Both the position numbers and the translations under genes were made by a program. The notes beneath the pieces are model-generated. The model had not been told where the DNA came from, did no database searches, and saw only the letters and a list, made by a program, of their open reading frames with translations. This document shows, one piece after another, positions 3,151-20,465 of a stretch of 22,701 bases of DNA (its first letter is position 1; every line of letters starts with the position of its first letter). The stretch lies in IMG/VR virus record IMGVR_UViG_3300017708_001836, positions 1 to 22,701 of that record; one strand, given 5' to 3'. The stretch is from a virus.

Positions 3151-4356
3151 ATGGCAAACAGCATAACAGGATATAACTTCGGGCCCGTTGGACCCACTGG
3201 TGATACAGGTGGGTTCGGCCCTAATGGCGCACCCGGTCCAGCAGGGCCCACTGGGCCTACTGGTGGAATTGGTTCTACCGGTGCTTCTGTTTCTGAAGTC
3301 ATAATTAGTGATTTTAGTGAAGACGGTACTTTAGATATTAAAACATTTTATACTAATGGTGCTAATGTTTTTTCTCCCAATGTCGAAGGTGAAGGAAATA
3401 ACGGTGGAGGTGGTGGTCCCGGTAGTATTGGTGGTGGTGACGGTGGAGAAGATATATCAATAGGCCCTGTTGGTAATTTTGTATATAAATTATTCGTTGA
3501 AGATATAGGAATTTGTGGTGCAAGTGAACTCGTTAAAGGCAACATTGATAATTGTTACATCGGGACAATGGATCTTAAAACCATCAAAGGAACTGGTGGT
3601 ATTGCTGTTACTCAAATAGAAGATGACATTTTTGTTGAGTATATAAACTATAAACAAATCGTAGGTGTCACACCAGCAAAGAAAAATCAAATAGCCTTTA
3701 TGAGTGGAACTGCTGGTAACAGTGCGGAAGCCACTCCTCTTGTTCGGGGTGCAACAGGTTTTAATTATAGACCTGAAAGTAACTCAATAAATGCAATATG
3801 TCGTAAGTACAGGGAAGTTGGTTTTAGATTTGGCATAACTGAGGTCAGTGGTGGATCTATAAATGATTCAACACGAATCATAGAATTTAATGTAGATCCA
3901 GGCCTACACCTCGGTACAAGATATGTTCAAGAAGATCCACACGGACCATCTGGACCTTGGGGAAACACTTGGTATATTGATGTTAATCAATTGTATATTT
4001 CTCAAGTTCCCTCGGCTTCGACTCCTCTCGGAGTATCGGCTCCTTTCATTAAAATCAATGATGTTACGGCAACTGCTGATACATTTGAACAATACTTTGG
4101 AAGTGGTAGAGCAACTTCGTTTACTCTTGCAATTAAGGGTGGAAGTAGTAGACCTAGAACTGATGGAAAAACTTGTGGGGTGGTGTGGCCAGAAAACTGG
4201 ATATTCCCTTACAAACTAAATCCAGTTTTAACTTCAGGTATTGATGTTTATCAATTCTATAGTCTTGGTAAAAAAGACAATAAAAAAAGAACCGTGTGGT
4301 ATGGTGTTCCATTAAAATCTAGTTCGGGTATAGATATATTCTTTCCTACATATTAA
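3151..4356 (+). CDS. Collagen-like phage structural protein
   Basis: A 401-residue protein whose start is supported by GAGG at 3141-3144, which overlaps the upstream stop codon. Residues 11-46 are 12 uninterrupted Gly-X-Y triplets, predicting a short collagen-type triple helix and a trimer. A Gly-rich linker follows (residues about 86-100). The rest looks beta-rich, with a motif (GGIAVTQIEDDIFVEY, then IVGVTPAKKNQIAFMSG) that resembles the head part of the next gene. The C-terminal part (GKKDNKKRTVWYGVPL) matches no family I know. Collagen-like segments are common in phage tail fibres and head fibres, where they act as rigid trimeric stalks. This is the first of three consecutive genes with the same start, so they probably form a related set of fibres. 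Virion location is inferred from the neighbours. Confidence 0.75.
   Translation: MANSITGYNFGPVGPTGDTGGFGPNGAPGPAGPTGPTGGIGSTGASVSEVIISDFSEDGTLDIKTFYTNGANVFSPNVEGEGNNGGGGGPGSIGGGDGGEDISIGPVGNFVYKLFVEDIGICGASELVKGNIDNCYIGTMDLKTIKGTGGIAVTQIEDDIFVEYINYKQIVGVTPAKKNQIAFMSGTAGNSAEATPLVRGATGFNYRPESNSINAICRKYREVGFRFGITEVSGGSINDSTRIIEFNVDPGLHLGTRYVQEDPHGPSGPWGNTWYIDVNQLYISQVPSASTPLGVSAPFIKINDVTATADTFEQYFGSGRATSFTLAIKGGSSRPRTDGKTCGVVWPENWIFPYKLNPVLTSGIDVYQFYSLGKKDNKKRTVWYGVPLKSSSGIDIFFPTY
3181..3288 (+). repeat. Collagen-like Gly-X-Y repeat, 12 triplets
   Basis: Codons 11-46 of the 401-codon gene encode GPV GPT GDT GGF GPN GAP GPA GPT GPT GGI GST GAS with no break. The segment is visibly richer in G and C than the DNA around it because of the Gly and Pro codons. 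It predicts a short triple helix that would hold the protein as a trimer. Confidence 0.9.
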
Positions 4357-4375
4357 GACTATCGTGAGTTAAAGC

Positions 4376-7300
4376 ATGACTAATTCCTCTACTATCTCTA
4401 CAATCATGGGACCAAGTGGACCGAGAGGACCACAAGCACCTTTAGGATCAACAGGACCAACTGGTCCAATTGGTCCTACTGGATCAATTGGAGCCACAGG
4501 ACCAACTGGATATGCTATAGTTGGTTGGACTGCTGGAATCATAGATTGTAATAGTAGAGTTCTTGTCAACGCTGACGGATCTACCGCATCGCTTGGACCT
4601 ATTGCTGGAAAAACAGCAGGTAGCAACGGTTCAGTAGGAACGCCAAACTTTTACGTTCAGCAGTTGGGTGGTGGGGCTCAGATCTTCAAAAACTCAGAAG
4701 GCGATACTGCATTTTTCCGATCTTTTAGAACCAGTCCCGATATTAATATCAATGAAACCCCAAACAACATTGAGTTAAACGCTCCATTTGGTTCTGGTCT
4801 ATTATCACAAGTTGTTGGTAAGACAGGTGAACTCTTACACTATGCGGGAACTACTTTTATTCGAGGTGCAGATGATACTTTCTTTGCAGAAGGCCTTAGT
4901 GCCGAAGAAGGTTCTCTCCAGGCAGTTCTTGGAGACTTTAAAGAATTAATCAAACGTTATGATCCAGAAAACGGGGAATCAATAACTGTAGATACAACAA
5001 TCACAAACAATCATTATATTGTTGGTCAAGCGGATTTTGAAATTACAGATGCTATTGTAAATGTTCAAGGTTTTGAACCTGTAACAACAGACGATGTGAC
5101 TTTTGGTGAAACAGTAAATACAACATTCATAATTAAAAATGGTGGACTAGCGAAAAACCAAAACCCGTTCAATGAAAACAAGTTCAAGTTCAGTCCAGTG
5201 GGGCCCACTTTCAGTACAACCAGCACTGACATTGTAAACTGCATCACTTTCAACAATGGTGAAACTTGGCAGTGCTTCATCGCTGGTAGAGATTATGATA
5301 CTACGTTTGATGGAACACTTAAAATAGGAGCCTGTTGTGGTGAAGAATGTAATGATTATGTTCTTTCACAAAACTGCTCAGGTTCTTTCTTCAATCAAAT
5401 TTCCTGCAATGCAGATCCATGTGATGGAACACTCGGTTCATGTTGTGTAAATAATTCTTGCTTTAGATTTTCTTTAACCAAATGTAGTGATATCGGTGGT
5501 AAATTTTTTCCAAATCTATTATGTGAAGATTTTACGTGTCCCGGTCCATGTGAAGGTTTAGGTTGTTGCTGTCTCGGAATTGAAGGACAAGTTACTTCCA
5601 ATCAAGATATATGTGTTGAACTCGGTGGTTTGTTTAATGATGAAAAAACTTGTGAAGGATTTATTATTGATGGTGAAGATGGTTGTGAAGAATTAACACG
5701 AGGATGTTGCTGCCTTCCTGATACATCTCAAGTGTCTGACGTTCTACCACTAGAGTGTCGTGATTTAGGTGGAATTCACATGGGTGCTGGAACTCAATGC
5801 AGTGAGGTAGATTGTTGTGCAGGTAGAAGCATACCAACAGGAGCGTGTTGTTGTTCTGATGGCACATGTAACGATCGAATAGTACAGACTCTATGTCCTT
5901 CTAATTGTCAATGGACTCAAGATGCAGGATGTGATGTTTGTGGTACAGTTCTAAATTGCAACTGTACACAAGAAGGTGAAAACCAACCCCCCGGATTCAA
6001 GAAGTGGGCTTTGTGGATAAAAGAAATTTTTGAAGCAGAAGAGGGAGAGCCTGACATCAAACTTCTAGGGACTTTTGTTAACTTAGATGATATAAGTGGT
6101 GCTTTCGGATGTGATAGACTATCCGATGGATTACACAACACATACTACACAAATTATGAAAACGTAACACATGATGAAAAAACAGAAGCGATACCTTATG
6201 CAAGGTCATTAAATGTGCCAGGTTTCTCTAACCAAGGAAATTATTATATTCCAAGTCTAAATGAGATGGCTTTCATTGTGTTGAAGAATCGTATTCACTC
6301 TAATATTCTTATCGGAGACACAGTAAACGATGTTCCATACTGGACTTCGACGAGAGCAAACGATACTGATTTCTTCTTTGTGAATGAGTCGGGTTTTGTT
6401 TTACAAACTCAGATGTCCAATGTCGGGGAACCAAATCTGAAAAAGAGAGCCGTTGTTGTTAGAAGATTATTACTAGAAAACGGAGCAGACGAAAGTGGTC
6501 TACCAACCGTTGGTCAAGAAAATGATGATGGTGAAAAGTTTGTGGGAGTTTTTGCCGCTGGATGTTCTGTGATCTTAAGTAACCAAAATACAGGACCATA
6601 TGAACTACCAACATACACATGCTCCGATCCACTAGAAACTGGACAGTGTTGTACCAATAAAGAATGTAGTGTGGTAAATGAATATGACTGTATTTTATCT
6701 GAACCACCTGGCATTTATTCTGGAGACAACCAAAATGCTAGTTGTGTTGACAATCCCTGTAATCCAGACGGCCCAGTTCAAGTTGAAACTTTAAACTGTG
6801 CAAGAGCAGGAGTTTTATCATATAAAGCAACTGAAGTCGGAGGTCCAGATTCATGTGCAAATGGTTTATCCAAGCAACTATATTACTATGCAGGAACCGT
6901 GGACATTGATGGTGTTCCTAATGATCTCGCCAACTACGACAAATTGAATGTCACAGGTAAGAATGATACAACACCAGACTATGATATTCGTGCCGATGCA
7001 GTAGATGTAGATACAGGTATTCTTGTTCAGGGTTATTGTCTCGGACATGATAAGGCAATGGAGTGTAATACAGATAGAAACATTCTATCCCCCACTGCGA
7101 TTGCAGCACCAACACTCAGAGCCTATTGTAATCAAGATTCACTTTATGGAAAAGATTATTCCTGTGCTGATGATAATGTTTGTGGTCAAGCAAAATCTAG
7201 TTTTGATACTGTGATAGACGATTGCTTATCAGCAAATAATGATGCTCTTTGTGGAAAATCAATTCAGACAGAAACTATAGATATACTCAACACGCTAGAT

Positions 7301-10228
7301 AGCACAACGTGTAGTACCACAAACTGGCCTTCCAATACAGATTGGAATTACCCATGTAATTCTGTGGGTCCAGAATGCAATTCACCAATTCGCATATGGA
7401 ACGGCCAACAAGCGAACTGGGAAAAATCGACGAATGGAAGACCAACTGTATTCACATGTGAACCATGTTTAAACTCTTTCTGTGCATACACTACATCCGT
7501 TCGAGATGATACAGTAAATTGTTGCAAGAGTGGTGGTGAGTGGAACGATACTTGTGCTGATCTATACAAGAGTTATTTAGAGAGTGTTTACTATAATGAG
7601 TGTGGTAACTCTGTTAACCTAGACAATCCTTTCTGTGGAGGAGAGGCTACAAACATTGAGTGGTCTAATGTAAGTAATTCTAATATTGGAACTTATTCTG
7701 ATTTAGATAGGGAAACATTCGAAGAGTCTTCTACCAAGTGCAGATCCTTGATAGATGAACTACGGTCATCTAATCTGGTAGGAGAGGGTTGTAACGACTT
7801 TGATGAAGATCGTGACTTCGAGAATCTTCAGTATGTTGATTACTCTGCTAAGGCAACCTATCAAACTTTGATACAACCACTAGCGCCACTACCTGGCGGA
7901 CTGGCGTTTGAGTTCGTTCCTGTTATCTGCAACCAAACCATTCCATGTATCGCGGGACAGTCTGACTGGCCATCAGAGTTTGACAACTCAAGATATACTT
8001 CATTGCTATATGGTATCAACAATCCAGCAAATGAAAACCAATCTTTGATTGGAACAACAGACAACAATTTAGGTCTTTGTTTAAATGATGGTTGTGAAGA
8101 TAATCTACAACCGAAAACAGGAACTCCAAAGGATAGAATCGAAACGACTATTAATCAAACTCCCGCCGGTATTCAGCAACATGAGCAGAGAGGTCTGTTG
8201 ATCACAAACTGTCAGAACAGAGTATTCTGTAGAGGAGATAGTTGTACTGAGTGTGGTGGCTTTGCAGATCTTGTTGAACCATTCAATCAACCTTTAGTCT
8301 CTTGCTGGGATTGCTCAACTGGAAACTGCACACAAGAGACAACGTGTAGTGAAGACTCCTCACTCTTCCCCGCAGAGTCATGTGATCCATCAGACAACCC
8401 ATGTCCATTCGGTCAGTGCTGTGATGGAGATTGTACCGAAAAGAGACTTACAGACTGTGGTGGAGTATGGATACAAACAGATAATCCATGTCCAAACGGC
8501 AACTTAACATGCGATTGCGGATCCGATGCACTCGGTAACTGCTGTACAGATTCGGTTCATAGTTATACATGTCAAAATCAGTGTGGAGGTGCATGGGAAG
8601 AAGGACCAGACGAAGGGCCTGAATCTTGTAATTCAAATCCAACAGGTTGCTGTTATCAGGTTCTAAACACTAGTGGCGATCCTTCACTAGCAGAAGCCGT
8701 AACATCACAAACAATCGAAGCAGAGTGTGGTGGTGCAACCGACGGGATCGCCGGCGTGGGTGGTCTGATCAAAATCTCATGGACAAAGGGTGTTGATTGT
8801 AGTGCAGTAAACCCAACTGGTAGATTCTGTAAGTCCCCGCCCGCCTTCTCAATTGAAAGTTGTGAGGATAACGTATTACCAGAGGACGGAACAATTCTTA
8901 CAGGCGGTGGTAACATTAGTATTGAGAACTGGACTCTAGATGGATCATGTGTAGGAGAAAATCCATGTAACTTCTCTACTGATCTAGCACCAATTTGTTG
9001 TCAGGGAATACCAGCAACAGATGGAACTGGAGCGTTTAATTGCTTTGAAGATCCAAACCGTGCAGTATGCTTCCCTCAGTCTCTCAATGTGATTGGAAGT
9101 TCAACTACATATGCGGGTGTAGAGGATACTACATGTGACGATTTTGATTGTTCAACTCAGTCTGGCTGGGGTCACTGTTGTTACAAGTCAAGTGAGGAAG
9201 CCGAATGGCAGTGTGCATATCCAGTAGGAGAGTATCACTGCTTGAACACCTTACACTCAGATGTATCAACCAACCCATCTTGGACTCTAACTGGCAGTAA
9301 CTGTGACACATGTGGTGATCCTAAAGATCCAACACTAGTAAATTGCTGCTACAATGTAGATCAATTTGGAACCAAGAGATGTCGTGTTGTTGAGGAAGGT
9401 AATTGCACCGCCTCAATATTAAGTGGATGTGGTGTTAGAGATATGGTTGGAACCAACACCAATGTTAACGGAAGTGCCAGTGTAGATTCTGAAGTGTGTG
9501 ATGTGTGTAACGGATGTGGTTCGCCTTCTTTAGTTAACTGCTGTTTCGACAATGGATCAGAATGTATTATGGTTCCCGAAGATCAATGTAATACTAGTGG
9601 ACTCAACCTATGCGATAGGGCCTGGAGTATTAGTCCTCCAGTAGTTAGTGGAAACGTAACTGATTCCGACGCAATTGGTTGTCAGGAATGTGCCGCGGGA
9701 TCCTGTGAGACTAACCCCTATACAGAGGGTTTTGAAGGTCTTGCGTGTGGAGGATTAAGTCCTCAGGGTTCTCAGTGTCCTTGCTGTCAAGATACCTATG
9801 GAGCGGGTTCGCTATTTAGGAACCAATTGTCAATTGAAAAAATAAACTTCAGATATATTCCGGAGAATCTAGGTATTCCCGAAGAATGGCGAATAGAACT
9901 AATATTCAGTAACAATGATGAAGCACAAGACTTTAAAGCAAATTATACTCTTGAGAATATTAACAACACGACGAATGATAAGGATGGAGATCAATTCATA
10001 AGATTCCGCGAGGAGGCCACCGAGGTAGGACCAGAGTATATTCCAAATGTATTACCAGACTTTCCATTCGGCGAGACCAATAGCGAAAAATTATACTTTA
10101 GTTCGTTCTCAAACGCGGTAGAAATAACATCTGGTAATTCCAGACCTGTTAAAGAATTCTTTAGTAATGCAAATAACGAAAATGCATTCATTAACGGTCG
10201 GGCTAGATGGAGAGTAAGATTTCCCTGA
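4376..10228 (+). CDS. Giant collagen-like, cysteine-rich fibre/adhesin protein with a lectin-like domain
   Basis: A 1950-residue protein, no family recognised as a whole. The start has only a weak Shine-Dalgarno (GTGAG), but the collagen-like segment begins 11 residues in. Order of parts: Gly-X-Y segment (12-47); beta-rich head (about 55-180) resembling the previous gene; beta-sandwich-like module (about 220-315, ending ITFNNGETWQCFIAG); first cysteine-rich modules (about 318-535); a DUF1566/C-type-lectin-like domain (about 540-702, with YYIPSLNEMAFIV, PYWTSTRAND and RAVVVRRL); more cysteine-rich segments with a long unrecognised middle (about 830-1340); a second module array (about 1345-1805); and a Cys-free C-terminal domain of about 140 residues. 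There are about 15 CC-containing modules. No signal peptide is visible, as expected for a virion protein released by lysis. I infer a long disulfide-rich fibre that binds a surface ligand. Confidence 0.75.
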   Translation: MTNSSTISTIMGPSGPRGPQAPLGSTGPTGPIGPTGSIGATGPTGYAIVGWTAGIIDCNSRVLVNADGSTASLGPIAGKTAGSNGSVGTPNFYVQQLGGGAQIFKNSEGDTAFFRSFRTSPDININETPNNIELNAPFGSGLLSQVVGKTGELLHYAGTTFIRGADDTFFAEGLSAEEGSLQAVLGDFKELIKRYDPENGESITVDTTITNNHYIVGQADFEITDAIVNVQGFEPVTTDDVTFGETVNTTFIIKNGGLAKNQNPFNENKFKFSPVGPTFSTTSTDIVNCITFNNGETWQCFIAGRDYDTTFDGTLKIGACCGEECNDYVLSQNCSGSFFNQISCNADPCDGTLGSCCVNNSCFRFSLTKCSDIGGKFFPNLLCEDFTCPGPCEGLGCCCLGIEGQVTSNQDICVELGGLFNDEKTCEGFIIDGEDGCEELTRGCCCLPDTSQVSDVLPLECRDLGGIHMGAGTQCSEVDCCAGRSIPTGACCCSDGTCNDRIVQTLCPSNCQWTQDAGCDVCGTVLNCNCTQEGENQPPGFKKWALWIKEIFEAEEGEPDIKLLGTFVNLDDISGAFGCDRLSDGLHNTYYTNYENVTHDEKTEAIPYARSLNVPGFSNQGNYYIPSLNEMAFIVLKNRIHSNILIGDTVNDVPYWTSTRANDTDFFFVNESGFVLQTQMSNVGEPNLKKRAVVVRRLLLENGADESGLPTVGQENDDGEKFVGVFAAGCSVILSNQNTGPYELPTYTCSDPLETGQCCTNKECSVVNEYDCILSEPPGIYSGDNQNASCVDNPCNPDGPVQVETLNCARAGVLSYKATEVGGPDSCANGLSKQLYYYAGTVDIDGVPNDLANYDKLNVTGKNDTTPDYDIRADAVDVDTGILVQGYCLGHDKAMECNTDRNILSPTAIAAPTLRAYCNQDSLYGKDYSCADDNVCGQAKSSFDTVIDDCLSANNDALCGKSIQTETIDILNTLDSTTCSTTNWPSNTDWNYPCNSVGPECNSPIRIWNGQQANWEKSTNGRPTVFTCEPCLNSFCAYTTSVRDDTVNCCKSGGEWNDTCADLYKSYLESVYYNECGNSVNLDNPFCGGEATNIEWSNVSNSNIGTYSDLDRETFEESSTKCRSLIDELRSSNLVGEGCNDFDEDRDFENLQYVDYSAKATYQTLIQPLAPLPGGLAFEFVPVICNQTIPCIAGQSDWPSEFDNSRYTSLLYGINNPANENQSLIGTTDNNLGLCLNDGCEDNLQPKTGTPKDRIETTINQTPAGIQQHEQRGLLITNCQNRVFCRGDSCTECGGFADLVEPFNQPLVSCWDCSTGNCTQETTCSEDSSLFPAESCDPSDNPCPFGQCCDGDCTEKRLTDCGGVWIQTDNPCPNGNLTCDCGSDALGNCCTDSVHSYTCQNQCGGAWEEGPDEGPESCNSNPTGCCYQVLNTSGDPSLAEAVTSQTIEAECGGATDGIAGVGGLIKISWTKGVDCSAVNPTGRFCKSPPAFSIESCEDNVLPEDGTILTGGGNISIENWTLDGSCVGENPCNFSTDLAPICCQGIPATDGTGAFNCFEDPNRAVCFPQSLNVIGSSTTYAGVEDTTCDDFDCSTQSGWGHCCYKSSEEAEWQCAYPVGEYHCLNTLHSDVSTNPSWTLTGSNCDTCGDPKDPTLVNCCYNVDQFGTKRCRVVEEGNCTASILSGCGVRDMVGTNTNVNGSASVDSEVCDVCNGCGSPSLVNCCFDNGSECIMVPEDQCNTSGLNLCDRAWSISPPVVSGNVTDSDAIGCQECAAGSCETNPYTEGFEGLACGGLSPQGSQCPCCQDTYGAGSLFRNQLSIEKINFRYIPENLGIPEEWRIELIFSNNDEAQDFKANYTLENINNTTNDKDGDQFIRFREEATEVGPEYIPNVLPDFPFGETNSEKLYFSSFSNAVEITSGNSRPVKEFFSNANNENAFINGRARWRVRFP
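4409..4516 (+). repeat. Collagen-like Gly-X-Y repeat, one imperfect triplet
   Basis: Codons 12-47 of the 1950-codon gene encode GPS GPR GPQ APL GST GPT GPI GPT GSI GAT GPT GYA. One Gly is replaced by Ala in the fourth triplet. It has nearly the same length and position as the repeat of the preceding gene, suggesting a shared fibre attachment or trimerisation stalk. Confidence 0.88.
5326..5944 (+). repeat. Cysteine-rich module array I (five modules)
   Basis: Five successive degenerate modules begin with GACC, GSCC, GCCC, GCCC and GACCC. The rough pattern is G-x-C-C, a third Cys a few residues later, C-x3-GG with an aromatic or hydrophobic residue, then C-x2-4-C. Module length is about 35-45 residues. 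The repeats are clear in protein and diverged in DNA, so they are old or fast-evolving. The pattern resembles a GACC...GG...C repeat that I recall from large secreted proteins of planctomycetes; that link is from memory and unchecked. Confidence 0.75.
8410..9787 (+). repeat. Cysteine-rich module array II
   Basis: About eight further CC-containing modules with starts such as FGQCCDGDC, LGNCCTDS, TGCCYQV, PICCQGI, WGHCCYKS, VNCCYNV, VNCCFDN and CPCCQDT. Spacing is less regular than in array I, with modules from about 28 to 65 residues, some with long inserts. The even-looking Cys pairing suggests disulfide-stabilised beads rather than metal sites, but no pairing can be proved from sequence. Confidence 0.7.
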
Positions 10229-10253
10229 GTCTGATATATAATAAGAGGATCAT

Positions 10254-13200
10254 ATGGCTTACACTACGTTTCAATCTATAACTGGACCTTCGGGACCAGA
10301 GGGAATTAAAGCAATCGGTGCCACTGGTAATACTGGTGACACTGGTCCTATTGGTGTAACTGGACCAGATGCTCCTTATGTTTTACGTTATAAGTGGTCT
10401 GAAATTGATCCATCCAATGGTGAAGAAAGAATCAAACTAACACTGTCTGATGAGAGTGTGGTTTATGTTGCTGGTATTTCTGGACAGAATGCTTATGTTG
10501 AAGGAGTGACTGCACTCGGTGATTCAGTCGGCAATCCATCTGGTCAAATCTTCAAACAAACCACCACTGCTGGTCCAAATCCAAGCGGAGCAACTTTTCA
10601 ATTCAGAGGACTAACTGCTGCCGTTGATCTTGGCATTGAGTTCGACGAAGATACGATTTCCATCTCCTCTCCATTAGGAATAACAACGGGTTATGTAGAT
10701 TCAGGTAGCACAGGTGAGTTCCTATTCCTATCTCCTCGCTATAAAGCACAAGGCGGCTCTGGTAGTTTTTATGATAATTCTGGTGTATCAAATCCCACTG
10801 GAACTGATAATACAATAAATGTCAAGTTCAGAAATGCTACTACTAATCTTGGCGATGAGTATAGTGCTGACTTCTGTGAATTGATCGTGGTGAGTGATGG
10901 GGGAGATGAATTAAAAGAATATATTCTTGATGTAAAAAATCTAGTTCGCTTTAGTCCACCAGAAGAAAACGGAAAACGTTTTGGTTATCTCTGTATGAGT
11001 GTTAGATTTTTGAGTGTTCCAGATCGACTTGTAGTTCTACGAACAAAGGTAGACGACGATCAAGATACGGAAATAATTCGTAAACCTTTATATGGTGCTT
11101 CTGAGGTAAACTTTGAAAATCCACTAGAAGGTAACCTTCTACTTGTTTCTGGAGAAAATAATAATGGAGAAGGTTATGGTAACACCGATTATCGTCGAGA
11201 TATAATAGGTTTCAATACACCATATCAAAATTTAAATGAAGGTTATTCGGCGGGTATCCATCCTCAAGTGTGGAGTGGATCTACGGGCGCACCTGCCGTT
11301 GATTACCCCAGCGAACAAGCAGTAATTTTTGATACGAACTGTGTATCTGACGATAGTCTAGAAGGTAAGTTCTTTAGAGGTAAACCATTCTGCACAGATC
11401 CAGACTCTGACTTGGGCGAAAAAACACATAGTTATTGTATTCGTATAGAAGAAGATTATTTTGAATCTCAAAATGAAAGCAGTCCGTGGTATGGTAAGAT
11501 TCGTTTAGTTGTAATGCCTGGTTGTGGATTCGTTTCGTCGAACGGCACTGCATGGAACTGGAAAATTTCATGTGATTCAGTTTGTTCGTGTCAGGATGCA
11601 GGTACAGTAGAAGACAATCCGTATGGTGGTTGTTGTACCAGTACAGTTTCAGAATGTGATTCGTTAATAAGTGGATCTATTAGCGGTAGAGTAGAACTCG
11701 ATATTACTAATACCGACGTTTTTAATGTTTCTGCACCTATTGATATCTCAGGTATTACTTGGTCATATGAACAGCGGGCTGGAATATCTCTTGGTAGTAA
11801 TGATGGTAATGAATTTGGTGAAATGAAAAACGTCACTCTCATTATTGATGGCGGGCCAAATAATATCAAATTCCCAGAAAATATAAAATTTGCTGGAACA
11901 CCAATTTTCACAAACGGTGTTGATATAGTAAACCTTGTAACAATTGATAATGGTGGCACTTGGTTTGCAACACAAACAGGATATGGTTGGGATGTTGATA
12001 TATTCAAAGAAGATGAATTAGGATCATGTTGTAGTAATCTTGGTTGTATTAACTTTGTAAATAAAACATACTGTGATGGATTAAATGGATCTTTTGAGTC
12101 ATCAGTTCCCTGCTATAGAAGAACTGATTCAGAATGCGGTGGCGGAATTACAGGTGGATGTTGTTCTGGAATAGAGGGTGTAGTAAATACAGGAATTCTT
12201 TGTGATGATGGTGATTATGAACCACCACCTGGCCACTCTTGCTGTGGAGATGACGGCAATGATTGTATACCTACCGGAGCAGATTTTCCAGAATATTTAA
12301 ATTGTTTTCTTGGAAATTGTGATGTGTGTTGTGGTGAAGGAAAGTTTAACTATGCACACTGTGATTTCGACGTATGTAATTTACCAGTACAGAAGTGTTG
12401 TTTTGCTGATAGAGGATATTGTTTAACAATAGCAGATGGTTGTAATAGTTGTGAGTCGTTAGGTGCAACAACAGTAACCAGTTGTGAAGAATGTAATATA
12501 GGAAACGACTTACCAGTTAAATGCTGTGCGCCATGTCCATTTGGTTGTGTTGAAGTTCGAGATACGGCCGCTTGTACTGAACTACAAGGAACTCCTTCAC
12601 CCAACGGTTTATGTTCAGGATGCTTAGGTCAACCTCAGTATGGTGAGGGAGCAAGTGCTTCTGCACCACCTAAATGTTTAACACCATCTACTCTACTACA
12701 ATGTAATTTAATCAATGGATATTTTGTTCCATCATCAGTAACAGAAGATGTGTGTAGTATTTGTGACGATATAAATGTATGTAGTCCTGATCCAGTAGGT
12801 GCTTGTTGTGACGACGCAAATGGCAATTGTCGTGGTATCATGTTGGAAAGTATTTGTCTTGCGATCGCTGAGACGAATCCTGGCACAATATGGTTGGGAC
12901 CAAATACAGAATGTGATGATTGTTGTGGTAATCAAGAGTTCCGTGGAGCGTGTTGCTTCTGCGACGAAAATTGTGTAGGGGATTTAACTACACAAGAATG
13001 TTCTTCGTTACAAGGAATCTTTATGGGAATAGATTCTACATGTGGTTCTGTTAATTGTAGCATTGCAGGGCCTTGTATCTGTCCATGTGAATTAACTGGT
13101 TGTTGTGATTGTCCTACTGGACATCCATTTAGAAGTCCTTGTTGTGATGACCCACAGTCTCCTGAGTGTTGTGGTCCTACTGATAGTTGTGACGATGATG

Positions 13201-14666
13201 ATGATGACGACGACGATGACGATGATGAGGATCGCGAAATAGATGATACTGAAGGTTTCTTTTTCTCAGGATTTGGGGCCGTGAGTAGTCCCGGCAATGG
13301 TAGCGTAACTCCGGACTTGCCTTGGGTTAAGGGAGCATGTTGTTTGGATGGGGGGAACTGTTTTCATTTTATTCAACCTTCCATTTGGTTGGGCCAGCAG
13401 ATAGATCCGAGTAATCCCGATAGTTATTTCAACACAAATAATCGATGCAAAGAATCAGTGGGTGGAGTGTGGCATCCATGGCAAACTTGTGACGATGTAG
13501 GATGTGTTAAGGGTGATTTTATTGCTGCATGTTGTTGTGCAACTTGGAGTATTGATTGTGATGACAATGAAGAAAAGATTGATCCTGAAAATCCAAATGA
13601 AGGATGCGAATGCGACATAGATGACATTGTAATTACTTGTAGTGATTGTGGTTTCAATGGTGGAAAGCCTGGTTTTTCAAAACCAGTAGGTTCTGCTGGT
13701 GGTCCATATAAACCAATACCACCAGGCTATCCTCCAGTGTTTTCACCACCCGGTGCTACAGCCTTCAAAGGAAGACCATCTTTTAAACCATTCGTCACTC
13801 CAGAAGGAAATGAAATTCCATACAATGCAGGTGAATGTTGTAGAAATCCCGGTGGTTGCAAATCAGCACCATGTACTCTAGATCAAAGAATATATTTTGC
13901 TGACGAATTTGATATAACACCTAGTGGTTCTAGTGGCGAAATATGTGATGAATACAATCAACTAGGGGACTTCGCCGGCGACTGTCTCGGTGATGAAGGA
14001 CTATGTAGTGAAAATAGTGATCAGAGTAGAATTGCAAAGGAGTGTGGTTGGTGTTCGGGCTCTGGTGTCTGTCCTGTCGGCGATGGTTGTCAGTTCGCGG
14101 AAGGAATAGATAGAACAATAATAGATCCAGAAACAGGAAGTCCAAAATATCTATTAGATGCTGCTAACACATCTTCATGTGATGTATGTAATTGCATCAA
14201 TTGTACAAACTTGTGTCCGGGTCCGAATAATCGATTATGTGAAGATAAAATACAAAGCACATGCAGGTTATTGTTCGATAAGAGTACAAAGAGAAGTCCA
14301 TCTGTGACAGGAACTTCATGCGATACTCCAGTAAGAATACCTGCCAATAAGAATCCTCATAGAAATGGTGGAAGTAATTCAGCGTCCGGTTTTAATAATC
14401 ATATACCGTCAAATAAACCACCATACAAGCCAGATCCAAATAGCATTTGTCGAAAGAATGGTAGAGTATTTGGACCATCTTTGAAAGATGGCGGAAACGG
14501 AAATACTGAATATCCGTCACCTTTCTATAGATCAAATATAAACAGACAGGCAGTCAATGAGTCTAATAAACAAAACGACATAGATTTTAGACAGATAAAT
14601 ACTACAGTGAAATTAGTGATATCTAAACTAAATGGTAAAACTAATATAAGTTATAAGCGAAGGTAA
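10254..14666 (+). CDS. Large collagen-like, cysteine-rich fibre protein with a poly-aspartate tract
   Basis: A 1470-residue protein with a good ribosome binding site (AAGAGGA at 10243-10249). Order of parts: an interrupted Gly-X-Y segment (11-39); beta-rich head (about 40-450) with a mid part (SYCIRIEEDYFES, WYGKIRLVVMPGCGF) I do not recognise; a beta-sandwich-like module (about 480-580, IVNLVTIDNGGTWFATQTG) matching one in the preceding gene; cysteine-rich modules (about 588-1090); 12 consecutive Asp (980-991) inside the module array; a Pro-rich segment (about 1136-1183, GPYKPIPPGYPPVFSPPGA); further Cys clusters; and a Lys/Arg/Asn-rich C-terminus ending KLNGKTNISYKRR. It is a paralogue of its upstream neighbour in layout, without the lectin-like domain. 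I infer a secreted-type, virion-attached fibre; the aspartates could bind calcium. No known family covers the whole chain. Confidence 0.72.
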   Translation: MAYTTFQSITGPSGPEGIKAIGATGNTGDTGPIGVTGPDAPYVLRYKWSEIDPSNGEERIKLTLSDESVVYVAGISGQNAYVEGVTALGDSVGNPSGQIFKQTTTAGPNPSGATFQFRGLTAAVDLGIEFDEDTISISSPLGITTGYVDSGSTGEFLFLSPRYKAQGGSGSFYDNSGVSNPTGTDNTINVKFRNATTNLGDEYSADFCELIVVSDGGDELKEYILDVKNLVRFSPPEENGKRFGYLCMSVRFLSVPDRLVVLRTKVDDDQDTEIIRKPLYGASEVNFENPLEGNLLLVSGENNNGEGYGNTDYRRDIIGFNTPYQNLNEGYSAGIHPQVWSGSTGAPAVDYPSEQAVIFDTNCVSDDSLEGKFFRGKPFCTDPDSDLGEKTHSYCIRIEEDYFESQNESSPWYGKIRLVVMPGCGFVSSNGTAWNWKISCDSVCSCQDAGTVEDNPYGGCCTSTVSECDSLISGSISGRVELDITNTDVFNVSAPIDISGITWSYEQRAGISLGSNDGNEFGEMKNVTLIIDGGPNNIKFPENIKFAGTPIFTNGVDIVNLVTIDNGGTWFATQTGYGWDVDIFKEDELGSCCSNLGCINFVNKTYCDGLNGSFESSVPCYRRTDSECGGGITGGCCSGIEGVVNTGILCDDGDYEPPPGHSCCGDDGNDCIPTGADFPEYLNCFLGNCDVCCGEGKFNYAHCDFDVCNLPVQKCCFADRGYCLTIADGCNSCESLGATTVTSCEECNIGNDLPVKCCAPCPFGCVEVRDTAACTELQGTPSPNGLCSGCLGQPQYGEGASASAPPKCLTPSTLLQCNLINGYFVPSSVTEDVCSICDDINVCSPDPVGACCDDANGNCRGIMLESICLAIAETNPGTIWLGPNTECDDCCGNQEFRGACCFCDENCVGDLTTQECSSLQGIFMGIDSTCGSVNCSIAGPCICPCELTGCCDCPTGHPFRSPCCDDPQSPECCGPTDSCDDDDDDDDDDDDEDREIDDTEGFFFSGFGAVSSPGNGSVTPDLPWVKGACCLDGGNCFHFIQPSIWLGQQIDPSNPDSYFNTNNRCKESVGGVWHPWQTCDDVGCVKGDFIAACCCATWSIDCDDNEEKIDPENPNEGCECDIDDIVITCSDCGFNGGKPGFSKPVGSAGGPYKPIPPGYPPVFSPPGATAFKGRPSFKPFVTPEGNEIPYNAGECCRNPGGCKSAPCTLDQRIYFADEFDITPSGSSGEICDEYNQLGDFAGDCLGDEGLCSENSDQSRIAKECGWCSGSGVCPVGDGCQFAEGIDRTIIDPETGSPKYLLDAANTSSCDVCNCINCTNLCPGPNNRLCEDKIQSTCRLLFDKSTKRSPSVTGTSCDTPVRIPANKNPHRNGGSNSASGFNNHIPSNKPPYKPDPNSICRKNGRVFGPSLKDGGNGNTEYPSPFYRSNINRQAVNESNKQNDIDFRQINTTVKLVISKLNGKTNISYKRR
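10284..10370 (+). repeat. Collagen-like Gly-X-Y repeat, interrupted
   Basis: Codons 11-39 of the 1470-codon gene encode nine Gly-X-Y triplets (GPS GPE GIK, then GAT GNT GDT GPI GVT GPD) with a two-residue interruption (AI) after the third. It is the shortest and most degenerate of the three neighbouring collagen-like starts. Confidence 0.8.
12015..12033 (+). repeat. 19-base exact repeat, copy 1
   Basis: GAATTAGGATCATGTTGTA encodes the ELGSCC start of a cysteine-rich module. The same 19 bases recur in frame at 15212-15230 in the next gene. Flanking bases differ, so this is a short identity inside otherwise diverged modules. Confidence 0.85.
12018..13523 (+). repeat. Cysteine-rich module array III
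   Basis: Modules begin with LGSCC, TGGCC, VQKCC, PVKCC, VGACC, RGACC, TGCC and KGACC, with the pattern C-C-x-n-C-x-n-C-x3-G...C-x2-4-C. Typical examples run from VGACCDDANGNC and RGACCFCDENC to the closing CGSVNC. The poly-Asp tract lies between two modules. The array differs in spacing from the arrays in the neighbouring genes but uses the same basic unit. Confidence 0.72.
13191..13226 (+). repeat. Poly-aspartate tract: 12 GAC/GAT codons
   Basis: Twelve consecutive Asp codons, a mix of GAT and GAC, followed by Glu, Asp and Arg. The trinucleotide tract could change length by replication slippage without breaking the frame. An acidic run of this kind could bind divalent cations; that is inference only. 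Confidence 0.93.
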
Positions 14667-14671
14667 TATGA

Positions 14672-17600
14672 ATGCCAATCAACTTTAGAACAAGATCAAA
14701 ATCAATTCAACCCGATCCCTCTGATGTAGGTGCGTGTTGTAAATTGAACACAGATAATACTGAATTTGTTTGTGAGGATAATGTAAAATTTATAGATTGT
14801 AAAAGAGAACTCGGATTGTTTCGAGGGAAAAATTCATCTTGTTTAAATAATTCATGTCCTACAGTAGATGATTCTGGTTTTAATGACGGTCTTGATAACT
14901 TTAATTCAGATCAACACGGAGCATGTGTAAGATGTTCTAGTTGTATTGAAAATGTAACAGAAGAATTTTGTATTGATGCAGAAAACTTTGATGCAGAATT
15001 CTTCGGGGGTAAGACTTGCAAACAAGCAGACTCTAGCATTACACCGAACAGTGTAAAGCACGCATGTTGTATCGATGATGGTTGTTTTGATACATGCAAT
15101 AAAAGTTATTGTCTAGACTTAGGTGGTATTTACCATGATGGTATTTCAACAGAACTGGCAGTTAGATGTAGTTCAAATCCATGTGGATTTGAACGACTAC
15201 CCAATACTCAAGAATTAGGATCATGTTGTAAGGCACAAAAATGTCTTGGGGTTTTAACTCAAGTGGATTGTGTCAACAATGGTGGTTCTTGGAAGGGCGA
15301 AGGAACAGACTGTAATACTAATGGTAATTACGACTGTATAAATGATCGACTTATTGGAGACAGACAACCACCCATACCAAGAGAACCCAGCGGGCTAGAG
15401 GGCGCTTCTGTGGTTTGTTCCAAACCAACCACAATGAAATATTATGGAACGACAGGTGCATGGAATGGTGTTACACTACCAGAATATACGGATGTTGAAT
15501 TAGAGGCTCGAAGGAATGCATTAAACTCTTTAGATATGCTTGATTTAAGAATAAAGGCAAGAGAAAGTGTATGGGTCGAACTTATGTCAGATGAGGGTCA
15601 ATGCACCGGTGAGGGTGGCGTCGTTAGTTCAACTGATGGTGATGTAAGCAAGGCAACTATGTGGGGTGGATGTCAGTGGTATGATAATGATGATCCGGAT
15701 CGATCTCGTTGGAGATGTGATGCTACAACATATGATGGATGTGCTGATAAGAAGGGTGTTTGGCACGCAGGACTCTATTGTGATGAAATTGAGAATTGGC
15801 CTGTAAATGGAAAATTATTAGCAAAAAACTTACCTTCGGGTGTTGGAATCAAATTTCTTGCAGGTAGATGTAATGTTATCGACAATTTAAATAATATAAG
15901 TTCCTTTGTTCCAGGCGAAAGCATTAATAATGTTGAGTGTCATGATATGTTAACAGAGTTTCAATGTTATGAAACCATGGCAAGAAGAAAAGATAGATAC
16001 GAAGCCGCAGGGAATGTGTTGCCGGCTGATCCGAGTGATTATATACGAAGTGAATGGGAGGGTGGTAAGAAGTGTACTGACTGTATTGAAGGCGGATTAG
16101 AAACTCAAGATACATTAGGTCTTTGTATTCTGGATACTGTAGCACAAGGTTCTTACTATAGCAACACAAGTGCTGGTGATTTGATTTCATATAGAGCAGG
16201 AACTGGTAAGCAGCGATCTTGTTTATCAGGGTTTACGGTCAAAGATTGTGAACTTCAATTTGGTCAGTGGATTAACACATGTGAAACATGTGAAGAACAT
16301 GACTCAACATACCCAGAGCCAGTATCAACAGGATCTTGTTGTACATCTGCAACTAACTGTGTTGATAATAAGTCCTTTGGAGAATGTGAAGCCTTAAATG
16401 GATTCTTCCACGGAGCGGGAACAGTTTGTACAGATACAAATGGAAATAGTAGAGACTGTGGTAAGGTTGCATATCTAACCAAAGACTTTTCTGATGTTCC
16501 AGTCAACTTAGATCCAGCAGTGTGTCAGTGTAAAGAGTCAGATAATCCAAATGCTGCTGATCCTGATGTAGTCAGTATTTTTGCAAGAAGAGATAGACAA
16601 AACCAAGATGACATTTGGGCTGGTTCGCAATGTGGAGATCCCACAGTTTCTGCTTTCCCATTATCAAGTCAACAAGTGGGGTATCAAGCAGATGTCATGG
16701 GACTATATTCTCTTGATGGAGGCCCTACCGACTCGGAACCAACATCGGGTAAATTTACAGACTCAAGAGAAATTTCTTTACGGAAATATAACTGGGAGTT
16801 TGAACCATTCAGAGACTTCATAAAAGGTGTTTCTGGTGCCTCTGGATCCTTCTTAGATAATATATTAATTGAATTTGGTTCACCTCTGTTCTTCCGAGTG
16901 GATAAACAAGAACCTTTCATGATTCCAAAATCAAGAGAAACACTAAAAGAAATTCGTGGTTCTGTTCTACAAACAAATCAACCAGCAAGTGATATTACAA
17001 GTATAAGTTTGAATGATCCTCAATTTGGTTGGCAGGTTGCTCCACCACCCCTTGATAGAAAGATTACTTATGTCAATCTAGAAGGAATGACAAATCTGAG
17101 AGAATTTGCAGTTCAGGGTAACAACTGGACTACTCTACAAGAAGATTTTGAGGCTGTATCATTACCTCTTCTTAGGATATTAGATCTAAGGAGTAGCAAT
17201 CTTCAAGGCCTTAATTTGGATAATGCTCTTGCAATTGAGTCTCTTAACTTAAGTAATAATAACATAACAGGAAATTATGATTTATCTTCGGCGAGATATC
17301 TCACAACTCTAGATGTTTCTTATAATAACATAAGTGAAATTGATTTTGGTAATGAAGATAAAATTTATCTAACTAATATTAATTTAAGTTACAATAATAA
17401 CTTATCTTCAATACGAGGGACTTTCCCACAGATAGTAAGTTTTAGTGCAATTAGATGTAACATATCTGAGATTGATCTAACAAAGAAACCATTCCTAACT
17501 GATATTGAATTACTAGGAAATTCATTAAGTTATGTTAAGATTTCAAAGACTCCTAGTATAAGATATATTGGATTAGATAATACTATTGGAAGTGATACAC

Positions 17601-18124
17601 AATTAAGCGAGTGTATATTGCCTACCTTAGTGAACAGAAAAATGCTCGCTAGTGATTTACCAACGTCTATTGAAGAAGCCGTAATACCAGATGTTTTATA
17701 CATGAACAAATTAAACTTCAGGAAGAACACTATCGACAATTTAGGTTATGATGATTTTGTTTCTAACTTAGCAGAAACAGTAGCAATCACATTTGTCTCT
17801 AAGTTTACTGAAACTAATTTCACAACAGTAGGTAATCTTAAAACAAGAAGTGGGTCAATATACTGTAAAGAAATTGACTTTAGTCATGTCACAGAAAGTA
17901 CAACAGAAAATTCTAGTAGTGTTGTAGAATTCCTGAAGTGTCTTTTCGGGAATGCGAATCCTGGCCAGTTGATAGGAATTTCTGGTGAAGAAAAAATAAG
18001 AATAATCTTGACGGGTATAAATACTAGTGTAAGATGGGAAAATAGTGATCCGGATAGTTTGAGAACAGCATTACAAAATGCTATCCCAACAAATGTTTAC
18101 AATAAACTAGCCCTTATAATTTGA
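14672..18124 (+). CDS. Cysteine-rich protein with C-terminal leucine-rich repeats
   Basis: An 1150-residue protein. The ATG at 14672 follows AAGG at 14660-14663; another ATG at 14668 is out of frame. Unlike its two upstream neighbours it has no collagen-like start and enters a cysteine-rich module directly (VGACCKLN at about 19). Modules recur at HGACVRC, KHACCIDD, LGSCCKAQ and, after a longer unrecognised stretch (about 240-540), TGSCCTSA. Cysteines become rare after about residue 651. Residues about 652-790 are an unrecognised linker domain. From about 796 to 975 there are leucine-rich repeats (LRILDLRSSNLQGLNL, IESLNLSNNNITGNYDL, LTTLDVSYNNISEIDF, LTNINLSYNNNLSSI), then a C-terminal domain of about 170 residues. 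LRR domains usually bind proteins, so an adhesive or receptor-binding virion protein is the best guess. Virion location is inferred from the surrounding genes. Confidence 0.72.
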   Translation: MPINFRTRSKSIQPDPSDVGACCKLNTDNTEFVCEDNVKFIDCKRELGLFRGKNSSCLNNSCPTVDDSGFNDGLDNFNSDQHGACVRCSSCIENVTEEFCIDAENFDAEFFGGKTCKQADSSITPNSVKHACCIDDGCFDTCNKSYCLDLGGIYHDGISTELAVRCSSNPCGFERLPNTQELGSCCKAQKCLGVLTQVDCVNNGGSWKGEGTDCNTNGNYDCINDRLIGDRQPPIPREPSGLEGASVVCSKPTTMKYYGTTGAWNGVTLPEYTDVELEARRNALNSLDMLDLRIKARESVWVELMSDEGQCTGEGGVVSSTDGDVSKATMWGGCQWYDNDDPDRSRWRCDATTYDGCADKKGVWHAGLYCDEIENWPVNGKLLAKNLPSGVGIKFLAGRCNVIDNLNNISSFVPGESINNVECHDMLTEFQCYETMARRKDRYEAAGNVLPADPSDYIRSEWEGGKKCTDCIEGGLETQDTLGLCILDTVAQGSYYSNTSAGDLISYRAGTGKQRSCLSGFTVKDCELQFGQWINTCETCEEHDSTYPEPVSTGSCCTSATNCVDNKSFGECEALNGFFHGAGTVCTDTNGNSRDCGKVAYLTKDFSDVPVNLDPAVCQCKESDNPNAADPDVVSIFARRDRQNQDDIWAGSQCGDPTVSAFPLSSQQVGYQADVMGLYSLDGGPTDSEPTSGKFTDSREISLRKYNWEFEPFRDFIKGVSGASGSFLDNILIEFGSPLFFRVDKQEPFMIPKSRETLKEIRGSVLQTNQPASDITSISLNDPQFGWQVAPPPLDRKITYVNLEGMTNLREFAVQGNNWTTLQEDFEAVSLPLLRILDLRSSNLQGLNLDNALAIESLNLSNNNITGNYDLSSARYLTTLDVSYNNISEIDFGNEDKIYLTNINLSYNNNLSSIRGTFPQIVSFSAIRCNISEIDLTKKPFLTDIELLGNSLSYVKISKTPSIRYIGLDNTIGSDTQLSECILPTLVNRKMLASDLPTSIEEAVIPDVLYMNKLNFRKNTIDNLGYDDFVSNLAETVAITFVSKFTETNFTTVGNLKTRSGSIYCKEIDFSHVTESTTENSSSVVEFLKCLFGNANPGQLIGISGEEKIRIILTGINTSVRWENSDPDSLRTALQNAIPTNVYNKLALII
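14729..15340 (+). repeat. Cysteine-rich module array IV (four modules)
   Basis: Four modules in a row start VGACCK, HGACVRC, KHACCI and LGSCCK, each closing with a Cys pair such as CLNNSC or CSSNPC. The third and fourth show the standard C-x3-GG-x-[YW] core (CLDLGGIY, CVNNGGSW). A fifth module lies apart near base 16336 (TGSCCTSATNC). The unit is the same as in the two preceding genes. Confidence 0.75.
15212..15230 (+). repeat. 19-base exact repeat, copy 2
   Basis: Identical to 12015-12033 and in the same reading phase (ELGSCC). The copies are about 3.2 kb apart in two adjacent genes, consistent with exchange of modules between genes, although conserved codons alone could produce part of it. 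Confidence 0.85.
17060..17590 (+). repeat. Leucine-rich repeat region
   Basis: The translation shows repeated LxxLxLxxN-type units about 20-24 residues apart: VNLEGMTNLREFAVQGNN, LRILDLRSSN, IESLNLSNNN, LTTLDVSYNN, LTNINLSYNN, then weaker units (FSAIRCN, LTDIELLGN, IRYIGLDN). Irregular unit lengths and Asn at the turn are typical of bacterial LRRs. About eight units would form a curved solenoid. Confidence 0.85.
18016..18023 (+). promoter_or_regulatory. Candidate T4-type late promoter TATAAATA
   Basis: An exact match to the T4 late promoter core TATAAATA lies inside the end of the LRR gene, 112 bases before the ATG at 18135. I noticed no other exact match on this strand. T4-like phages often place late promoters inside upstream coding sequence. 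Transcription would start near 18029 and serve the small Cys protein and the neck genes. In AT-rich DNA a chance match is quite possible. Confidence 0.35.
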
Positions 18125-18692: not shown

Positions 18693-18730
18693 CCTCCTAT
18701 GTTCTTATACATACCTAAGAACATAGGAGG
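18693..18730 (+). promoter_or_regulatory. Perfect 15-bp hairpin hiding the gp13 ribosome binding site
   Basis: The left arm (18693-18707) CCTCCTATGTTCTTA is the exact reverse complement of the right arm (18716-18730) TAAGAACATAGGAGG, with an 8-base loop. The right arm ends in AGGAGG (18725-18730), the Shine-Dalgarno of gp13, seven bases before its ATG at 18738. In a transcript containing both arms the site would be paired and translation of gp13 reduced. No U-run follows the stem, so it is not a standard Rho-independent terminator. Confidence 0.85.
18706..18713 (+). promoter_or_regulatory. Candidate late promoter TATACATA across the hairpin loop
   Basis: TATACATA differs from the T4 late core TATAAATA by one base and lies mostly in the loop of the gp13 hairpin. 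Using T4 spacing, transcription would start near 18719, inside the right arm. Such a transcript would lack the left arm, leave AGGAGG free and allow gp13 translation. This parallels T4 genes e, soc and I-TevI. Confidence 0.4.
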
Positions 18731-18737
18731 TTCTCAT

Positions 18738-19544
18738 ATGGGTAGTCTTGCATCAAGAGAGCAAATTATCGATTACGCCATGCGTAAATTGGGCGCACCT
18801 GTTGTTGAAATTAATGTTGATTACCAGCAGGCAGAAGATCGTTTAGACGAAGCACTTGAATTCTTTACAGAACGACACTTCGATGGCGTTGAGCGTTGTT
18901 ATTTCAAGCATCAAATAACTTCTAATGATATCACAAATCGATACATCTCTACATCTAATCTACCACCCGTTGATGGTCCTACTGGAAATGGACCTGATGG
19001 TTCAGATATTGTTTCGGTTGTGAGAATCTTCCGCATGGAATCTTCGTCATCTAACATGTTTGATGTTCGTTATCAGTGGGCATTGAATGATGTCTTTGGT
19101 ATTAATACAGGCAATGCGTTTGGTGGAGGATCAGAACCTCTTGCTTCTTATGATATCTTCAGACGTTACAATAGTCTAATCAACGACTTCTTCAATCCAG
19201 ACAAGGCATTACGATTCAGTAAAGTAACAAATAAATTACACATCGATATGGACTGGTCTACTGATGCAACAGTTGGTGACTTCATAGTCGTAGAAGCGTA
19301 TGCCGCTTTGAATCCAAATTTATACACTGAGATATTTAATGATAGAATGCTAAAGAAATACTTCACTGCATTGTTAAAGAAGCAGTGGGGTATGAACATG
19401 CTCAAGTATGATGGTATTCAGTTACCTGGCGGAGTCAGTCTCAAGGGTGGAGAGATATACCAGCAAGCAGAGCAAGAGGTAGAAAGACTAGAAGAAGAGA
19501 TTAGAGGGCAATACGAACTTCCTATCGACTTCATGACAGGGTAA
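18738..19544 (+). CDS. 13: Neck protein gp13 (head completion)
   Basis: T4 gp13-like head completion/neck protein. In T4, gp13 and gp14 form the connector between the portal vertex and the tail. I chose ATG 18738 (268 residues) over the in-frame ATG 18699 because AGGAGG sits seven bases upstream and the extra 13 residues would be encoded by the hairpin. Family signs: RKLGAPVVEINVDYQQ near the start (T4 has RRLGAPIINVELTPDQ), the acidic helix ending FTERHFDGVE (about 43-52; T4 YGEYHFDGV), and the C-terminal LPGGVSLKGGEIYQQA (229-244; T4 LPGGVTIDGQRLIEEA) leading into a charged helix. It is shorter than T4 gp13 (309). It lies three bases before gp14 in the canonical order, and its translation may be controlled by the hairpin just upstream. 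Confidence 0.93.
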   Translation: MGSLASREQIIDYAMRKLGAPVVEINVDYQQAEDRLDEALEFFTERHFDGVERCYFKHQITSNDITNRYISTSNLPPVDGPTGNGPDGSDIVSVVRIFRMESSSSNMFDVRYQWALNDVFGINTGNAFGGGSEPLASYDIFRRYNSLINDFFNPDKALRFSKVTNKLHIDMDWSTDATVGDFIVVEAYAALNPNLYTEIFNDRMLKKYFTALLKKQWGMNMLKYDGIQLPGGVSLKGGEIYQQAEQEVERLEEEIRGQYELPIDFMTG

Positions 19545-19547
19545 TAA

Positions 19548-20465
19548 ATGGCAACAAATCCATACTTCAACTTTAAAAGTTCTGCTCCAGAACAAAGCCT
19601 AATGGAAGACCTAACCATCGAAGCAATCAAAACGATGGGTATGGATGTTCTATATCTTCCTAGAGAATATGTGAAGAAGGATCTTTTATTCGGAGAAGAC
19701 GTTCTTAGTCAGTTTACCAAGACATATGAAATTGAAATGTACCTCCAGAGTGTCGACGGGTTCCAAGGCGAAGGTGATATTCTAGCCAAGTATGGACTAG
19801 AGATTAAAGATAAAGTTGAGATGGTTGTTTCTCGTCGTAGGTTTATAGATGAGATTGGTAATCTAGAAACTGATATTAATCGACCAAGAGAAGGCGATCT
19901 TATATTCTTTCCCTTTGGTAATTATCTGTTTGAGATTAACTTCGTAGAGCATGAGAATCCATTCTATCAGTTAGGTAAGAATCAAACCTACCTTATTCAA
20001 GCCGAACTCTTCACCTACTCACTAGAAAAATTCCAGACTGGTGTATGTGGTCCGGATCAACTACAGAACACGAAGGAATACGCAACAGAGTTTACAGTAG
20101 GAACAGCGGTCAACTCTGGACCTGGCTACTACTTAGGTGAAACAGTATTCCAAGCCGTTGGACTAACGGGTGCAACACTAGGACAGGCAACTGCTTCTGC
20201 AACCGTAGTTGGCTGGTCACTATTAACAAGTAAACTAACAGTGTCGAGTGCGAGCGGTTCGTTTGTAACTGATGGTTCGGAAACAGTTAAAGGTAATAAA
20301 TCTGAAACAGAATACTATCTAACAGACTCAGATACTACTAACCTTATAATTCCAGAGAATGTTGTTAGTAATATTCCTGACGGTGATGCTAATACTTTTG
20401 GTGTCGAGAAACAAAGCATATTAGACTTTTCCGAAACAGATCCATTCTCGGAGGGTAACTATTAA
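19548..20465 (+). CDS. 14: Neck protein gp14
   Basis: T4 gp14-like neck protein of 305 residues (T4: 256), partner of gp13 in the head-to-tail connector. Strong family blocks: YLPREYVKKDLLFGEDVLSQ (36-55; T4 YVPREYVSPDLIFGED), MYLQSVDGFQGEGD (64-77), REGDLIFFPFGNYLFEINFV (114-133) and ENPFYQLGKNQ (136-146). The C-terminal ETDPFSEGNY echoes the SPFDNDF end of T4 gp14. Between them, residues about 190-258 are an insert (GYYLGETVFQAV...GSFVTDGSETVKG) resembling a small beta module seen in other marine phage virion proteins. The ribosome binding site is AGGG at 19538-19541. It overlaps the next gene by one base (TAATG), implying translational coupling. Confidence 0.93.
   Translation: MATNPYFNFKSSAPEQSLMEDLTIEAIKTMGMDVLYLPREYVKKDLLFGEDVLSQFTKTYEIEMYLQSVDGFQGEGDILAKYGLEIKDKVEMVVSRRRFIDEIGNLETDINRPREGDLIFFPFGNYLFEINFVEHENPFYQLGKNQTYLIQAELFTYSLEKFQTGVCGPDQLQNTKEYATEFTVGTAVNSGPGYYLGETVFQAVGLTGATLGQATASATVVGWSLLTSKLTVSSASGSFVTDGSETVKGNKSETEYYLTDSDTTNLIIPENVVSNIPDGDANTFGVEKQSILDFSETDPFSEGNY

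Follow-up and report, generated by a model that had tools for sequence, protein, structure and literature searches.

Giant, collagen-starting and cysteine-rich putative fibre genes between the tail-collar gene and gp13 of an uncultured T4-like phage

The window analyzed here, a whole virus record of 22.7 kb, carries a block of giant genes between a tail-collar gene and gp13. This interval probably belongs to the host recognition cluster of an uncultured T4-like phage and represents the cluster's fibre part, encoding collagen-stalked receptor-binding fibres that are likely hardened by disulfides. Gene layout, homology together with a conserved domain architecture, cysteine conservation and the fold match of a tip domain led us to this reading, from which we infer that the products sit on the virion and bind receptors. 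A host recognition cluster in this interval and cyanomyoviruses devoid of wac were already known. The arrays of GxCC cysteine modules in phage fibres, the N-terminal motif that precedes their collagen, and the gene beside gp13 are new here.

Gene layout between the collar gene and gp13

The cassette consists of four ORFs at positions 3151-4356 (P0003, 401 aa), 4376-10228 (P0004, 1950 aa), 10254-14666 (P0005, 1470 aa) and 14672-18124 (P0006, 1150 aa). All four lie on the plus strand with gaps of 5-25 bases, forming a tightly packed operon. The first-pass annotation had described four genes of 401, 1950, 1470 and 1150 codons at 3151-18124, three of them with collagen-like starts; the coordinates proved exact, and collagen-like starts were found in P0003, P0004 and P0005 and not in P0006.

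The left border of the cassette is P0002 (1838-3142, plus strand), a 434-aa protein in the gp12-like slot, which contains a phage tail collar domain (PF07484, E=4e-8) and matched the gp12 collar domain of T4-like phages in a local tblastn search. The right border is gp13, the head-tail adaptor Ad2 (18699-19544, plus strand; phrog_211, E=1e-37), followed by gp14 (19548-20465) and gp15 (20465-22525), both identified by PHROG and Pfam, and by the start of gp16. The proposed flanks, a tail-collar gene on one side and gp13 on the other, were therefore both present, except that a 178-aa gene, P0007, separates the giants from gp13. In close relatives, gp15 (the tail sheath stabilizer) ends after 274 aa and gp16 begins directly behind it; gp15 of the window is about 412 aa longer at its C-terminus (21287-22525). 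Viral contigs and cultured phages contained no relative of this extension, and the PDB yielded only a weak similarity to alpha-amylase (E=0.012).

P0007 (18135-18671, plus strand) lies directly upstream of gp13. An alignment of 58 sequences revealed six invariant cysteines in the pattern C-C-CxxCxC-C. The gene adjoined gp13 in the loci mapped, was present in 12 of 19 records and was found in 84 viral contigs. None of 50,697 cultured phage records matched it; Pfam gave no convincing match, and a PDB fold search gave nothing significant. Genes upstream of P0007 had a median cysteine content of 4.3% (101 loci, some redundant), compared with 0.6% in 18 loci lacking P0007. Since the most distant P0007 carriers have an ordinary cysteine content, P0007 is not tied to the cysteine trait.

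Fibre architecture and the GxCC module

An alignment of 34 giants revealed a common order: a short peptide at the N-terminus leads into a collagen stem, and a beta-rich tip region and then GxCC cysteine modules come next. P0003, with 4 cysteines, is the plain fibre of the set: a collagen stem (aa 11-45) is followed by fibre domains and, at the end, a tip-type motif, and its ortholog in a 97-kb relative (G002) lies at L086:6133-7296. P0004 contains, all on the plus strand, a collagen-like Gly-X-Y stem (aa 12-46; 4409-4513), a fibre tip domain (about aa 200-312; 4973-5311), an array of six-cysteine GxCC modules (about aa 318-520; 5327-5935), an Lcl_C, C-type-lectin-like stretch (about aa 545-700; 6008-6475) and a second cysteine-rich half. 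P0005 likewise has a collagen stem and a tip domain (about aa 474-585; 11673-12008, plus strand), which matched the tail fibre family phrog_7760 (E=8e-6) and aligned with the P0004 tip, followed by cysteine-rich arrays. Within this cysteine-rich part lies a run of about 12 aspartates (13190-13232) encoded by a 9-base tandem repeat. P0006 has no collagen; the module profile detected at least four GxCC modules (aa 20-62, 131-171, 183-222 and 554-596), and a leucine-rich-repeat region follows at about aa 800-960 (LRR_8, E=0.003, below the cut-off).

The arrangement that marks a collagen-stalked fibre, in which a Gly-X-Y repeat at the N-terminus precedes a phage fibre domain, was thus found. The P0004 stem was recognized by its repeat pattern, with a Pfam Collagen score (E=0.0018) below the curated cut-off because the stems are short. 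Ahead of the collagen, the motif G[SNF]Sx[ILVFM] occurred within the first 20 residues in 28 of 50 collagen-starting ORFs and in 6 of 732 other ORFs, a difference whose p value is descriptive only, as the motif was defined on the data used for counting. The three collagen fibres of the window carry a looser form of this GSSxI motif. The recurrence of a GSSxI-type peptide before collagen in many different fibres suggests one common docking site on the particle.

We modelled the P0004 tip together with two GxCC modules (4937-5581) using AlphaFold2 and obtained a mean pLDDT of 82. In a search of BFVD, a library of viral structures, the model aligned over about 120 columns with major tropism determinants, tail fibres and collagen-like fibre proteins at a probability of 1.00 and with E values down to 2e-6. 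Against PDB folds, this tip-plus-GxCC model gave nothing significant. Tip regions also matched PHROG tail fibre families. Adhesion-type domains among the giants included Lcl_C in 4 members, VWA in 2 (9.5e-13), LRR, FG-GAP (2.5e-53) and dockerin. The Lcl_C stretch of P0004 was weak when searched alone (E=0.13), and PF07603 was detected in 4 of 34 relatives (best E=3.4e-5). A search for a DGR reverse transcriptase, which could diversify the lectin-like domain, found none.

The giants P0004, P0005 and P0006 contain 136, 108 and 53 cysteines, respectively (4.6-7.4%). Because gp13, gp14 and gp15 contain one, one and no cysteine, the enrichment within the window is limited to the fibre cassette and P0007. 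Profile hits with the spacing GxCC-C-C-GG-C-C were obtained in all three giants (consensus GACC-x-C-x-C-xxxGG-x-G-x-C-x-C), and residue-shuffled copies contained no module. Between relatives, 86-98% of aligned cysteines were kept at an overall identity of 43-66%; this conservation, well above overall identity, indicates structural cysteines. The dN/dS ratio of the cassette genes was about 0.2-0.3, a rough value with synonymous sites near saturation. Taken together, the absence of modules from shuffled copies, the cysteine conservation and the dN/dS ratio indicate that the cassette is not a product of chance.

We then looked for the module in cellular genomes. For the locus search, the initial alignment proved too divergent and one module by itself did not offer enough length, and a tandem consensus succeeded; this tandem, half profile consensus and half an idealized hand-written variant, served only as a search probe. 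GxCC modules, often in tandem, were found mainly in Planctomycetota (Phycisphaerae) and also in Gemmatimonadota, Eisenbacteria, Acidobacteriota and others. Several of the Planctomycetota proteins had apparent signal peptides and dockerin-like ends, as read by eye. The tandem modules in Planctomycetota (L172-L251) may give a clue to the hosts or to where the module came from. An apparently unrelated phage contig (L253) also encodes a protein of 417 aa that has 32 cysteines and includes a GxCC module.

Relatives of the cassette and the role of its products

The gp14 of the window was at most 40% identical to that of cultured phages, with Kyanoviridae cyanophages closest, and many uncultured relatives were closer, at up to 93%. 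Locus searches with gp14 and P0007 gave about 150 viral contigs. The window and most of its relatives are fragments, so the absence of a gene from them is weak evidence. In the 97-kb relative, gp53 ... gp6 are followed by an unnamed gene, gp8, a 267-aa gene, a P0001 homologue (911 aa), the collar gene, P0003, P0004, P0005, P0006, P0007 and gp13 to gp21, which, with T4 as the reference, identifies the slot as that of T4 12-wac-13. The T4-type order 10-11-12-wac-13 suggested by the first-pass annotation is resembled only at its ends, since gp9, gp10, gp11 and wac could not be recognized in this relative. A comparison of this interval in other T4-like genomes showed the cassette in dozens of viral contigs from uncultured relatives, whereas cultured cyanophages carry giant structural genes devoid of cysteine (2073 and 2301 aa) in the same slot. 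Within one genome pair, P0006 was 66% identical and gp13 94%, indicating that P0006 evolves faster than the neck genes.

Megablast and tblastn searches of the giants against cultured phages left P0003 and P0004 unmatched, and P0005 gave only weak tip-region matches (E=0.1-1), mostly to fibres of rV5-like and Aeromonas phages. Fibres containing more than 100 conserved cysteines had no counterpart in the 50,697 phage records or in the literature searched, and we found no isolate belonging to this phage group. The cyanophage marker psbA was present in both cyanophage controls and in none of 22 relatives, which, as these records are fragments, only suggests a non-cyanobacterial host. Cysteine giants also occur outside the wac slot: one relative (G004) has, between gp53 and gp6 in its baseplate region, an ORF of 2745 aa (L096:5162-13399) in which 296 residues (10.8%) are cysteines.

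The giants do occupy the locus of fibritin, as had been proposed: the slot between the gp12-like collar gene and gp13 is syntenic, with P0007 also in between. PHROG and Pfam scans detected no fibritin in P0003-P0006 or other proteins of the window, and a wac homologue sought in relatives was likewise missing (phrog_1056 in 0 of 22 records, PF07921 in 0 of 16), while the T4 control was positive for phrog_1056 (E=1e-207). Together with the conserved extra gene P0007 adjoining gp13, these results would fit fibres at the neck or collar that took the whisker's place and its functions, namely to hold or retract the long tail fibres and to sense the environment. We consider such a replacement unlikely, and nothing places the products at the neck. 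The short peptide that precedes the collagen differs from the N-terminal domain of fibritin, and neither a fibritin domain nor a conserved fibritin N-terminus was found. Marine cyanomyoviruses without wac, g10, g11 and g12 were reported in 2010 (PMC2984593). Their slot holds the cysteine-poor giants mentioned above. In cyano- and pelagimyophages, this interval has been described as a host recognition cluster that is hypervariable and contains fibre genes (PMC7029224). The data therefore show a whisker-less slot filled by fibre genes rather than a neck location or a whisker function. Gene position does not fix a product at the neck; attachment to the baseplate or tail is at least as likely, and the adjoining collar gene argues equally for the baseplate.

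With the products read as receptor-binding fibres, P0003, P0004 and P0005 would be virion fibres docked on the particle by their short N-terminal peptides. Their collagen parts would trimerize into a triple helix forming the stem, with the phage fibre tip domain next. In P0004 and P0005, the chain would run on past the tip into GxCC arrays and other surface-binding domains, displaying more binding sites, and P0006, a related module-plus-LRR protein, may cap or accompany the fibres. Of the earlier description as collagen-stalked, disulfide-rich adhesive fibres, the collagen stems, the extreme cysteine richness and the phage-fibre tip match were all observed; the disulfides are our inference. 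Judging from the sequences, disulfides are the simplest reading of the GxCC cysteines, which would most probably be oxidized after cell lysis to give a disulfide-knit adhesive fibre resistant to proteases and shear. Counting against this model, assembly in the cytosol would hold thiols reduced until lysis, and no DsbA was found in the relatives, which are fragments. The same two points, a reducing cytosol and no oxidase in the DsbA search, would favor modules that bind zinc or an iron-sulfur cluster and fold in the cytosol as metal-stabilized domains. This appears improbable, as the module has no conserved histidine and no zinc-ribbon CxxC pair, several bacterial GxCC proteins look exported, and the only PDB similarity among searches without a significant sequence or fold match was to the extracellular part of iRhom1 (weak, E=0.36). 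The exported look of those bacterial proteins, and the resemblance of VWA, FG-GAP and dockerin to domains of secreted bacterial exoproteins, would also suit giants that are not virion parts and instead leave the cell at lysis or are displayed on it during infection, forming a sticky matrix or blocking co-infection. We regard this as very unlikely: the giants lie inside a structural operon and carry a phage fibre tip domain, and no signal peptide was seen at their starts, which consist of the short peptide and collagen.

Collagen-stalked fibres on the virion thus remain the preferred reading. More tentatively, it is possible that a large uncultured T4-like group has a distinct fibre class, built from a GSSxI-like docking peptide, a collagen stem, a phage tip, long disulfide-knit GxCC arrays of a kind common to bacterial proteins, and swappable VWA, LRR, FG-GAP or lectin domains. 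Such fibres would be covalently hardened and multi-site, unlike those of any cultured phage searched. To our knowledge, few phages rely on disulfides. If real, these fibres would represent a hardening strategy in uncultured phages from many metagenomes, and would raise the question of how fibre proteins made in the cytosol become oxidized. The GxCC module would also tie phage fibres to Planctomycetota proteins and may hint at the hosts.

Comparison with known systems

In the gene maps of the relatives, variable fibre-type genes lie between baseplate and neck genes, as expected of a host recognition cluster. The cluster described in pelagimyophages and cyanomyophages (PMC7029224) is likewise a large variable block of fibre genes in this position, with collagen and other receptor-binding domains in the structural operon. 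A word search of that paper found no mention of cysteine, whereas here P0004-P0006 carry their cysteines in GxCC modules and a conserved 178-aa gene stands beside gp13. T4 fibritin shares the slot between the gp12-like collar gene and gp13; it is a coiled coil with a foldon encoded by one gene of 487 codons, in contrast to several giant genes with collagen, a beta-rich tip and cysteine arrays and no sequence match to it.

Collagen helices are known from trimeric fibres of phages (PMC3368898). The EPcl proteins of E. coli prophages described there resemble the present fibres in having a collagen helix as the stem with end domains; the present fibres differ in that their collagen occupies the very N-terminus and the tip is followed by long cysteine arrays. 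The Planctomycetota GxCC proteins share the six-cysteine spacing, the glycine positions and the frequent tandem arrangement. There, the modules belong to proteins several of which are apparently exported, whereas here they are joined to a phage collagen fibre.

Agrobacterium phage Milano (PMC10491603, PMC10811340) is the best-documented disulfide-rich phage in the literature searched. Both systems show an unusual enrichment of cysteine in proteins of the virion, putative ones in the present case, with disulfides as the stabilizer, proven in Milano and presumed here. Milano has 2.1% cysteine in its structural proteins, no whiskers, and disulfides in the sheath, collar and capsid demonstrated by cryo-EM. 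In the present phage, the higher cysteine content of 4.6-7.4% is found in putative fibres, while gp13-gp15 are cysteine-poor.
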